Shown here one piece after another: positions 39,180 to 43,281 of a DNA stretch of 64,000 nucleotides. Position 1 is the first letter of the stretch. The number at the start of each line of letters is the position of its first letter. The position numbers and the translations under genes are program-made. The notes beneath the pieces were generated by a model that was given only the letters and a program-made list of their open reading frames with translations, had not been told where the DNA came from and made no database searches. Origin of the DNA: Sedimenticola thiotaurini (GTDB lineage: Bacteria > Pseudomonadota > Gammaproteobacteria > Chromatiales > Chromatiaceae); contig VMRY01000034.1 in the NCBI GenBank assembly GCA_007713595.1, positions 29,963-93,962 of the forward strand. The letters are read 5' to 3'.

Positions 39180-39968
39180 TCAATCCCCCTCAACCACCTC
39201 TCCATGACTATGGTGATGTTTTGGTGCGTCGGTACTATGTTCATGCCCGGCATCTAGGCCCGCTGCATGTATATGCATATGTGAATGGGTATGCACATGG
39301 GGATGGCTGTGCATCACGCCTTCTACCAGGGTGCCATCCTGGATCATCACGGCACGGGTAGAGAGTCGTTCGACCAGTTTTCTGTCATGGGAGACAAAGA
39401 CCATTGCTTGAGTGAGTGACTCCAGATGTTCCAGTAATCGTTTTTCTGCCTTCTCATCCAATCCATTGGTTGGTTCATCCATTAGCAGCACTTCAGGCTG
39501 CATGGCCAACACGGTGGCCAGCGATATCATGCGCTTTTCCCCACCTGAGAGTTTATGTGTGACACGTTGGAGATAGTTGGACATGCCCAGTGATGCCAGC
39601 GTCTCTTCAGCAATTGTCTTGGCTTCCGCTTCGCTTTTGCGCAGATTAAGCGGGCCAAACATGACATCTTCTAAAACGGTAGGACAGAACAGTTGATCAT
39701 CCGCATCCTGGAACAGCAGGCCTGCCTTGGCGCGTACTTCGCGGAAATCGCTTTCACACTGGCGTGTCTGACCAAAGGCTGAGATGGTTCCTGTTGTAGG
39801 TTTGTGCAGACCCACCATGAGCTGCAAGAGGGTTGATTTTCCTGCGCCATTCTCACCCAGTAGCGCAACCCGCTCACCCGCATGGAGTGTGAAATTTACA
39901 TCAGAGAGCACCGAATGGGCGGGATAGTCGAATCCGATCTGATCCAGCGTAATGAGTGGCCCATTCAT
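39180..39968 (-). CDS. nikO: Nickel/cobalt ECF transporter ATPase NikO/CbiO with His-rich C-terminal tail
   Basis: GENGAGKSTLLQLM; LSGGEKRMISLATVLAM; tail HSHPHVHTHSHMHIHAAGLDAGHEHSTDAPKHHHSHGE. Confidence 0.9.
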   Translation of the reverse strand: MNGPLITLDQIGFDYPAHSVLSDVNFTLHAGERVALLGENGAGKSTLLQLMVGLHKPTTGTISAFGQTRQCESDFREVRAKAGLLFQDADDQLFCPTVLEDVMFGPLNLRKSEAEAKTIAEETLASLGMSNYLQRVTHKLSGGEKRMISLATVLAMQPEVLLMDEPTNGLDEKAEKRLLEHLESLTQAMVFVSHDRKLVERLSTRAVMIQDGTLVEGVMHSHPHVHTHSHMHIHAAGLDAGHEHSTDAPKHHHSHGEVVEGD

Positions 39969-40723
39969 AGCGTCTGATCCAGTAACAGGGCGAACAGGCA
40001 GAGGAGACTCAGCGTCAGCAACACAAGCGTGTCGCGCATTTGCCAGCAGTTGGTTGTTATGAGATAGAGCTTGCCATTAAAACCACGACACTTCATCGCC
40101 GCCAGAATACGTTGCGAGCGCTCCAGGCTGCGCACCAGCAGCATCCCGATCAGCCAGCCAAAGCTGCGCCAGGTGTGGCGGTTACTACTGGCGATAAAGG
40201 CACGGGCGCGCATCGCCATGCGCAGGCGTTGATACTCATCGAACAGTACGCTTATATAGCGCACGGTAAACAGAAAAAGATGAATCAGTTTCTCAGGCAG
40301 TTTCAGTTGCGCCAACGCATGCCCAAGTACGACCGGTTCGAGTGTGCCGATCATGGTCATCAGCATAATGACAATGGCATTGGCCTTGAGCACAATCTGT
40401 ATAGCGCGCTGAATTCCCTCTATGCTGGCACTGAGTGCACCCAGAGTGAACAAGCTTTCACCCGGTATTGAAAAAGGTAGCATGATTAGCAGTACCAGCA
40501 TGAATCCTTCCATGGCCAGCAGGCGTTTCAATAACACGCTTCGGCTAATCCCTGTTACCCAGGCGACTAACAATGCGGCAAAGAGGATCAGAATCAGCAG
40601 GGATATCTGTTGCAGAGCGACTGTAGTCAGGGCAAACAGCAGGGCGGTCATCAAGCGCATGCGTGGATCGAACTGTTCAAGCCAGTCTGATCGTGCATTC
40701 TCCTCTGCCACGGTTAGCTGCAT
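39965..40723 (-). CDS. nikQ: ECF transporter transmembrane protein NikQ/CbiQ
   Basis: CbiQ-like (FDPRMRLMTALLFALTTVAL; RMAMRARAF); operon position. Confidence 0.88.
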   Translation of the reverse strand: MQLTVAEENARSDWLEQFDPRMRLMTALLFALTTVALQQISLLILILFAALLVAWVTGISRSVLLKRLLAMEGFMLVLLIMLPFSIPGESLFTLGALSASIEGIQRAIQIVLKANAIVIMLMTMIGTLEPVVLGHALAQLKLPEKLIHLFLFTVRYISVLFDEYQRLRMAMRARAFIASSNRHTWRSFGWLIGMLLVRSLERSQRILAAMKCRGFNGKLYLITTNCWQMRDTLVLLTLSLLCLFALLLDQTL

Positions 40724-41292
40724 TACTTTTTACCCGGAGTCTGTTTGCTGCGCCACCAGAGCGCGATACCGGCGAGTCCAAATATGAAACCGACACCACC
40801 CAGTATGTCACTCAGACGAGCGCGGTCATCACTGCGTTGCAGTGATTCACGCAGGGGGCCAATCTGTTTGGCCACAGCCTGTTCCACTAGCAGTGCAAGT
40901 TGCTGATCTGTTTTTGTTGATGTCGCTGGTGATGAGGCCGGGTAGGATTGATTTGAGGAGTCTGTGGTGTCAGATGTTGAGTTGAATGTATCCGCTTTAA
41001 TCAACCATTCGGCCTGATGACCCTCACCTGTATTAGCTTGAATCTTGTAATCATCAGGTCGCGATGCAGTGAATAAAAATTCACCTTTGGCATCACTCTT
41101 CAGGTTGCTTTGTTCCTTGTCAGTCAAACTTGTAAGAGTGATCGCCGCCCCTTCGACGCCTGCTCCACCGGCAAAATAGGTGGAACCATGTATGGTATTA
41201 CCTTCAACATAGGCAAACAGTTTAAGCAGGTGAGCGTCTGCCGATGTATGTATCAGCAACAGAGCTAAACAGAGCATACGCTTGTGATACAT
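40723..41292 (-). CDS. nikL: NikL-like accessory subunit of nickel ECF transporter
   Basis: Signal peptide, HLLKLFAYVEGNTIHGSTYFAGGAGVEGAAITL, C-terminal TM; operon context. Confidence 0.75.
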   Translation of the reverse strand: MYHKRMLCLALLLIHTSADAHLLKLFAYVEGNTIHGSTYFAGGAGVEGAAITLTSLTDKEQSNLKSDAKGEFLFTASRPDDYKIQANTGEGHQAEWLIKADTFNSTSDTTDSSNQSYPASSPATSTKTDQQLALLVEQAVAKQIGPLRESLQRSDDRARLSDILGGVGFIFGLAGIALWWRSKQTPGKK

Positions 41293-41298
41293 AAACAG

Positions 41299-41907
41299 TT
41301 ACTCCTGCACCCGGATCAGCTCCGGTGCCACTTTAATAATGAAGGCCAGGGTAAAGCCGGTGACCGCGGCCTCGGCCAGCATCAAAGGGGCATAGGTTGC
41401 CAGCACAATCTTGGCGGCTGGCAGATAAGCAGATCCACTTAAACCCAGTGACAGGCTGACCAGTGTGCCCGTCAATAAAACGCCCACGGCACCGCAGAGT
41501 GCACCCAGATAAAAGAGCTGCCTGCCGCTTGAGCGATGCAGTATCGGCGCAAACAGGGCGCTACAGATCAGTGCCGGCAGTGCAATATTCAAGGTATTCA
41601 CGCCCAGGACCAGCAGACCGCCATAACCAAAAAACACCGCCTGCATAATCAGGGCGATCAGGATGGCAGGCACGGCAGACCAGCCCAGTATGATACCCAT
41701 CAGTCCATTGAGAATCAGATGAACACTGGAAGGACCCACTGGAACGCTCAGCAGCGAGGCGATAAAAAAAGTAGCGGCAAGAACCGCAGCCTGCGGTATG
41801 CGCTCAAAATTGAGTCGGCGTGTTGCGACCACCAGCAGGGCGGTGGAGAGTACAGCGCCTGTTATTAGTACGGGTGCAGAGAGTACGCCATCGGGTATGT
41901 GTGCGAT
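41299..41907 (-). CDS. nikM: Nickel ECF transporter substrate-binding membrane subunit NikM/CbiM with apparent ATC start
   Basis: In-frame N-terminal extension of the track ORF: ATC-GCA-CAC-ATA-CCC-GAT-GGC = (M)AHIPDGVLSAPVLITG..., with PSSVHLILNGLMG downstream. AGGAGA 8 nt upstream. In-frame TGA at 41929-41931. Confidence 0.8.
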   Translation of the reverse strand: MAHIPDGVLSAPVLITGAVLSTALLVVATRRLNFERIPQAAVLAATFFIASLLSVPVGPSSVHLILNGLMGIILGWSAVPAILIALIMQAVFFGYGGLLVLGVNTLNIALPALICSALFAPILHRSSGRQLFYLGALCGAVGVLLTGTLVSLSLGLSGSAYLPAAKIVLATYAPLMLAEAAVTGFTLAFIIKVAPELIRVQE

Positions 41908-41911
41908 GAGC

Positions 41912-42697
41912 CTATCTCCTCTCCGGTGTCATGTCGCGGGCGTAGATCCAGATCAGCGCGCCCTGTTCAAGTGGTACCGATTCACCCTGTGGGTTTGTTA
42001 CCGTCTCAGCCCCTTCAAGCAGGGCTGCAAAGCCCCACCAACCGGATCGGGGCAGGGCATAGCTGAAGGTGCCGTTGGCATCGGCTTTGATGATCTGGGT
42101 AACGTAGGGATCGGCGGGCGGGCTGATGGAGCCGTCATTCAACCACTCCACTTCAATTTCTGCGAAGGGAACGGGTTGACCTGCTTGCTTCACCACGCCC
42201 TGGAACAGATTGCCGGTCCAGAGTCCATAGGGACGCGTTAATGGATCGATTTCAACGGGGAAGCCGATGAGTTGATCCCAACCTGCCTCGCCGGCAAAGG
42301 CACCCACAACCACTTTGGTGTAGTGCTTGATCATCACCCCTTCGCTGGGTTCCCAGTACGGGGAAGGCTCTATATAGAAGAGATAATCACCCGGCCGGGT
42401 GAAACGGTAATTGGCTTGGTAGGCGGGCTGTCCTTGGCGTTCAAGTGGCTTCAGCTGGGCTTTGAGATCTTCCCGGCCGTTGGGCCCGATGACGCCAAAT
42501 TGCAGCGGCTTGCCCATCGTCATCACCGGTCCTTGCTGCATCGGGTGGGTAAAAGCGAGATCCAGTGTCACTCGGTGCTCACTCGCTTGTGAGACGATAT
42601 CCAGTGACGGGATTAACGTCTGAAAGTGAGCTGGGGAAAGGCCTGGCAACATGATGAGCAGCAGGGCCATCCAGAGGATAAGCTTGGTTTGCATCAA
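41912..42697 (-). CDS. nikK: NikK-like periplasmic (DUF4198-type) component of nickel transporter
   Basis: Signal peptide; HFQTLIPSLDIVSQASEHRVTLDLAFTHPMQQGPVM; upstream of nikM. Confidence 0.8.
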   Translation of the reverse strand: MMQTKLILWMALLLIMLPGLSPAHFQTLIPSLDIVSQASEHRVTLDLAFTHPMQQGPVMTMGKPLQFGVIGPNGREDLKAQLKPLERQGQPAYQANYRFTRPGDYLFYIEPSPYWEPSEGVMIKHYTKVVVGAFAGEAGWDQLIGFPVEIDPLTRPYGLWTGNLFQGVVKQAGQPVPFAEIEVEWLNDGSISPPADPYVTQIIKADANGTFSYALPRSGWWGFAALLEGAETVTNPQGESVPLEQGALIWIYARDMTPERR

Positions 42698-42813: not shown

Positions 42814-43281
42814 TCAGGTCTGCGGATGAGTGTGGCTGTGCTTGTGGGCTGACCCGCCATGATGGTGTTGCTCTTGCTCCACCTCGACAGGAATCAGGTT
42901 CAGTTTTCCGTGGCGTACACCGGGCTGGGTGATTACCGCGTTGGCAAACTCTTTCACCTCGCGGATCGGCCCATTGACCACTACCGTCTCCAGGCAGTTC
43001 ACATGATCCAGATGGACGTGCAGGGTGGAGATTGAGACATCGTGGTGGTGGTGATGGGCGTGGGTCAGCCTTCTGGCCAGCTCGCGCTCTTCGTGGTTAA
43101 AGACATAGGTGAGGGTGCCAATGCAGTGCCCGGCATCGGACTTCGCCATGCGGTCGGCCTCCAGGGTGTCTCTGATCATATCCCGTATTGCCTCTGAGCG
43201 ATTTTTGTAATTGCGCTGCTTGAGGTACTCCTCAAACTGACTGACCAGCTCTTCATCCAGGGATATGGTGATGCGTTCCAT
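42814..43281 (-). CDS. nikR: Nickel-responsive regulator NikR with His-rich C-terminal tail
   Basis: RHH N-terminus MERITISLDEELVSQFEEYLKQRNYKNRSEAIRDMIRD; metal-site residues in HHHHHDVSISTLHVHLDHVNCLE. Confidence 0.95.
   Translation of the reverse strand: MERITISLDEELVSQFEEYLKQRNYKNRSEAIRDMIRDTLEADRMAKSDAGHCIGTLTYVFNHEERELARRLTHAHHHHHDVSISTLHVHLDHVNCLETVVVNGPIREVKEFANAVITQPGVRHGKLNLIPVEVEQEQHHHGGSAHKHSHTHPQT

Follow-up and report, generated by a model that had tools for sequence, protein, structure and literature searches.

At which codon does translation of nikM begin in Sedimenticola thiotaurini? We analyzed a 64,000-nucleotide stretch of contig VMRY01000034.1 (the window), in which the conserved N-terminus of this nickel transporter subunit is encoded upstream of the start picked by mechanical ORF calling. 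That start, GTG 41832, is the first in-frame NTG of the gene and corresponds to codon 26 when counting is begun at an ATC at positions 41905-41907 of the minus strand. The original prediction was that nikM is initiated at this ATC, read as AUC, and that default annotation removes the metal-binding end of the protein.

The nickel transporter cluster and the start of nikM

The gene lies in an intact, single-strand cluster with the minus-strand order nikR, nikK, nikM, nikL, nikQ, nikO. The DUF4198 gene is presumably nikK, an assignment based on its position and general knowledge. The relevant features are as follows, in the order of the minus strand.

42814..43281, minus strand: nikR, nickel-responsive repressor, upstream of the nikK-like gene and in the same direction (NF002815, 4.5e-55)
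41912..42697, minus strand: nikK-like gene (DUF4198), starting at TTG 42697 or ATG 42694 (PF10670, 8.6e-57; ORF)
41916..41920, minus strand: putative Shine-Dalgarno sequence AGGAG of nikM, 8-nt spacer to ATC, pairing with the 16S tail at -9.1 kcal/mol
41905..41907, minus strand: probable AUC start codon of nikM, near-cognate; ATC also in 12 of 74 distinct loci
41299..41907, minus strand: nikM, NikM/CbiM nickel-specificity subunit, 202 codons plus stop from AUC (PF01891, 6.2e-53, full profile; NF004905 from profile position 1)
40723..41292, minus strand: nikL (NF058648, 2.6e-53)
39965..40723, minus strand: nikQ/cbiQ, transmembrane T component (TIGR02454, 1.3e-43)
39180..39968, minus strand: nikO/cbiO ATPase with a His-rich C-terminus (PF00005, 1.2e-32)

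This type of nickel transporter, NikKMLQO, has been described previously (PMC2667541). The C-termini of NikO (HSHPHVHTHSHMHIH...KHHHSHGE) and NikR (HHHGGSAHKHSHTHPQ) are both rich in histidine and may serve to store or sense nickel.

Following the in-frame TGA at 41929-41931, the minus strand reads CAC CGG AGA GGA GAT AGG CTC ATC GCA CAC ATA CCC GAT GGC, and translation of the frame from there gives H R R G D R L I A H I P D G V L S A P. Re-reading all coordinates in the sequence bore out the claim that ATG, GTG, TTG and CTG are absent between this TGA and AHIPDG, leaving ATC as the sole near-cognate start in the interval. It equally bore out the AGGAG (41920..41916) at an 8-nt spacing ahead of the ATC; a second GGAG lies immediately 5' of it. 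The nikK stop codon, TAG 41914..41912, ends 4 nt before the ATC. Read from AUC, the product has 201 residues after the start codon and covers positions 1-205 of the 205 in PF01891 (CbiM).

In NikM/CbiM proteins the N-terminal ligands of the metal are the N-terminal amine and His2, and methionine aminopeptidase generally removes Met when Ala comes next. The mature protein would thus be Ala1-His2-Ile-Pro, and, given this removal, His2 and His62 of the window NikM fall, in an alignment with the solved NikM (4m58), on its His2 and His67, so that the metal-site argument of the original prediction fits. Substrate binding by NikM/CbiM involves residues 1 and 2 of the protein (PMC6828968).

Start codons across NikM loci

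We examined nine Sedimenticola genomes, seven of which carry nikM. Five of the seven have ATC at exactly the same codon: the window, S. selenatireducens BK-1, S. hydrogenitrophicus SB48 and SN1189, and the two-contig assembly G008. The other two, S. selenatireducens DSM 17993 and MAG N3S-Bin_9, have ATG, in one case with an almost unchanged strong Shine-Dalgarno sequence, which shows that the presumed weak initiation at AUC is not indispensable to nikM within the genus and that any dampening it brings can be lost.

The NikM proteins of BK-1 (ATC) and DSM 17993 (ATG), both labeled S. selenatireducens (L031/L034), are 86% and 79% identical to that of the window, respectively. Because the two strains differ both in this identity and in the nikM start codon, one of the species labels looks doubtful.

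Outside the genus, ATC occurs in L011 (G151, two contigs), L017 = Thiococcus pfennigii (L050), L013 = L042 (a MAG), L038 (a Thioalkalivibrio paradoxus MAG), L043 (a Chromatiales MAG), and L059 and L142, which belong to another family of the class; L035 has ATA. ATC thus spans identities of 74-86% within the genus and 64-69% for the other lineages. Across 74 distinct loci of the Ala-His type of NikM, the start position is occupied by ATG (44), ATC (12), TTG (9), GTG (8) or ATA (1), and by no other codon. The same set is found in the 68 of these distinct loci that were unselected with respect to codon (L001-L110; ATG 41, ATC 11, TTG 8, GTG 7, ATA 1, no other). A search of 210 family genomes, with a pattern allowing any D-T-N codon before AHIPDGV, returned 45 sites, with 30 ATG, 8 ATC, 4 TTG and 3 GTG and none of the other allowed codons. 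The codons immediately 5' of this position vary freely between species. Exchange restricted to start codons argues that the ATC is neither a product of chance nor a codon within a longer coding region. The comparison with orthologues thus strongly supports initiation at AUC: ATC is present in most of the genus and in other gammaproteobacterial lineages, it is exchanged only with start codons, and it follows a strong, compensating Shine-Dalgarno sequence.

The Ala-His type is rare, and an ATH pattern gave no further case in a phylum sample of 398 genomes; the 15 cbiM matches in plasmid records are each below 60% identity. In the sister type that begins Met-His (MHIVDG/MHIPDG; L071-L110), ATG precedes His in every locus seen, unlike the Ala-His type, which tolerates GTG, TTG, ATC and ATA as starts.

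Stronger Shine-Dalgarno sequences before weaker start codons

We measured Shine-Dalgarno strength as the energy with which the sequence 5' of the start pairs with the 16S tail (ACCUCCUUA). Mean pairing was -4.3 kcal/mol for ATG (n=44), -5.7 for GTG (n=8), -6.1 for TTG (n=9) and -8.5 for ATC/ATA (n=13), such that Shine-Dalgarno strength rises as the nikM start codon weakens, in the known order of start-codon strength. With loci treated without regard to relatedness, ATC/ATA differs from ATG (-8.5 vs. -4.3; Mann-Whitney p = 3e-6) and from GTG/TTG (-8.5 vs. -5.9; Mann-Whitney p = 4e-4). A tree of the nikM loci contains at least six changes between ATH and NTG, with gains and losses indistinguishable, and an independent-pairs test of Shine-Dalgarno strength against codon yielded six pairs, one of them well supported.

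ATC/ATA loci and NTG loci are alike in folding energy (-14.2 vs. -14.8), and we therefore make no claim for an RNA structural switch at the nikM start. Rfam gave no match, and a search for a nickel-linked element or RNA structure at this start found none. In the window (41875-41924), nikM codons 8-10 contain a CTCTCT that is able to pair with the Shine-Dalgarno GGAGAG; similar pairing with a downstream CTCTC is possible in L003 and L006, and not in L013.

A probable second AUC start in the genus

As a control, orthologous ORFs were compared across stretches of five Sedimenticola genomes, with 1.6 Mb from G008 and 0.83 Mb from the others. An initial screen for genes conserved 5' of their first NTG gave 108 rows, mainly conserved leaders and overlapping genes, and a shared-start version was also too loose; the result reported here comes from a strict version. 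Among 745 genes in 322 orthologue families, nikM was the only clear gene with coding conservation well upstream of its first ATG, GTG or TTG, and the screen picked it out in all genomes carrying ATC. The few other rows were leaders 9-24 codons long that ended at an NTG.

The gene infC, the classic example of an AUU/AUC start, served as a positive control for AUC starts in the genus. In all six Sedimenticola genomes in which it was found (L263-L268), infC has GGAGGA, an 8-nt spacer, ATC and then GCN, and the ATC is preceded by GTT or ATT and a stop codon. Very probably, then, Sedimenticola has at least one essential gene whose translation begins at AUC followed by Ala. Elsewhere, infC starts at AUU in E. 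coli and at ATC in Streptomyces (PMC5472188).

How NikM may be made

As a whole, the best explanation, which we hold to be highly probable, is that nikM is initiated at AUC, that Met is removed, that Ala1-His2 forms the nickel site, and that synthesis is low and sensitive to IF3. Initiation at AUC itself is, on the sequence evidence, nearly certain. The sequence comparisons above show a retained start position, exchange only among start codons, Shine-Dalgarno compensation and an intact gene. The initiator fMet-tRNA would pair with bases 1 and 2 of AUC 41907-41905, the strong Shine-Dalgarno sequence at 8 nt would make up for the poor match at the third, and ribosomes terminating on nikK 4 nt upstream probably help initiation. 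With Ala next, Met would be removed to leave Ala1-His2-Ile-Pro, in which the free amine of Ala1 and His2 would build the nickel site. We infer the use of fMet, loss of Met, low yield, IF3 sensitivity and any benefit to the cell.

The conserved AUU and AUA starts of Staphylococcus aureus have extended Shine-Dalgarno sequences and give about 10% of AUG output, although the AUA start of ccpN reaches up to 30% of AUG in rich medium (PMC13009471). IF3 represses non-NTG starts (PMC5472188). Since starts of this kind are both weak and repressed, the AUC is expected to hold NikM synthesis below the AUG level and to make it IF3-sensitive, as in infC. The AUC may have a regulatory role, in which case such dampening could be useful.

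A reading that has a real, if minority, chance of being right accepts AUC as the true start but regards it as nearly neutral: a strong Shine-Dalgarno sequence would suffice with any ATN, and ATG and ATC would drift without regulatory meaning. In its favor, ATG and ATC replace each other in Sedimenticola while the Shine-Dalgarno sequence stays almost the same (L003/L004 vs. L005), and our search for RNA structures and nickel-linked elements found none. Against it, ATC has been kept over the wide divergence given above despite a roughly tenfold cost of AUU/AUA (PMC13009471), and such drift was seen in no other gene of the 322 families. It is possible, though less likely than not, that the AUC is instead a selected control tier, making NikM both limiting and IF3-sensitive so that nickel uptake tracks the translation state on top of NikR repression, with nikM and infC as a small AUC-start regulon.

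Initiation at GTG 41832, with the conserved stretch 5' of it untranslated, has the merit of a normal start codon but is very improbable. It would remove His2 and the first helix of NikM and would ignore the Shine-Dalgarno sequence placed ahead of the ATC. AHIPDGVL is kept at the protein level while changing at third positions, and the first downstream NTG varies among the ATC loci (codon 26, 14, 27, 8, 13 or 29).

We consider it just as improbable that NikM arises by frameshifting out of nikK, or from a start farther upstream, followed by cleavage that exposes Ala1-His2. The end of nikK is indeed close to the ATC, and L017 and L142 have an in-frame NTG 11-14 codons further upstream; however, NTG/CTG is absent upstream in frame at 11 of the 13 ATC/ATA loci, in most of them the frame is already interrupted by a stop 4-16 codons ahead of the ATC/ATA, and a strong Shine-Dalgarno sequence at 7-9 nt would be pointless. 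Because the nikK-nikM gap (4 to 48 nt) and frame difference (0, 1, 2) vary among ATC/ATA loci, a NikK frameshift fusion is ruled out as a general mechanism.

Sequencing error or decay in this genome, which the original prediction had allowed for and for which the odd codon alone speaks, is refuted for the family as a whole and has next to no probability here, given 12 distinct ATC loci from independently sequenced genomes that include the two-contig assemblies G008 and G151, a full-length nikM frame and an intact nikR-K-M-L-Q-O cluster.

Relation to known weak starts

AUC is hardly ever employed as a start codon, and to our knowledge infC is one of a very small number of bacterial genes for which any start other than NTG is well supported. 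AUC-initiated nikM would belong to a rare but already known kind, represented by the non-NTG starts of infC, pcnB, sigR, cvfC1 and ccpN. Like such genes, it has no nearby in-frame NTG, and its codon and strong Shine-Dalgarno sequence are conserved. The pcnB gene of E. coli, with an AUU start, likewise combines a conserved weak start with an extended Shine-Dalgarno sequence; it differs from nikM in codon and gene. In infC, too, an AUH start stands behind a strong Shine-Dalgarno sequence, and in Sedimenticola it is ATC followed by Ala codons; however, IF3, the product of infC, regulates its own gene, whereas nikM is a transporter gene without such a loop.

The sigR gene of Streptomyces resembles nikM in having a non-NTG start within an operon, removal of Met (presumed for nikM), a mis-annotated start and conservation within the genus. 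It differs in that its start is GTC, is IF3-repressed and is experimentally proven, and in that it keeps the sigma factor below its anti-sigma factor (PMC5472188). The S. aureus genes cvfC1 (AUU) and ccpN (AUA) share the conserved weak start and extended Shine-Dalgarno sequence, but they involve another codon, gene and phylum, and initiation and yield were measured there, whereas nikM is known from sequence (PMC13009471). The solved NikM proteins of NikKMLQO nickel ECF transporters (4m58/4m5b) match that of the window in family, gene neighborhood and the aligned His2 and second His ligand; they begin Met1-His2, whereas the window NikM would have Ala at position 1 after removal of the Met initiated at AUC.

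The literature we searched, which included few subscription papers, yielded no paper linking nikM or cbiM to a non-canonical start. What is new is the gene itself, the recurrence of its start in several lineages, and the stepwise trade-off between start codon and Shine-Dalgarno sequence inside a single family.

Very probably, then, the AUC of nikM is a genuine if weak start, and one that gene finders would overlook. Because the metal is bound by the first residues of NikM, misplacing the start abolishes the function predicted for the protein. The gene offers a clean test case for control of a transporter by IF3. Its family also amounts to a natural experiment, in which ATG, GTG, TTG and ATC are exchanged by degrees against Shine-Dalgarno strength, on how the two trade off. 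A search for conserved N-termini behind AUH codons could reveal more such genes.
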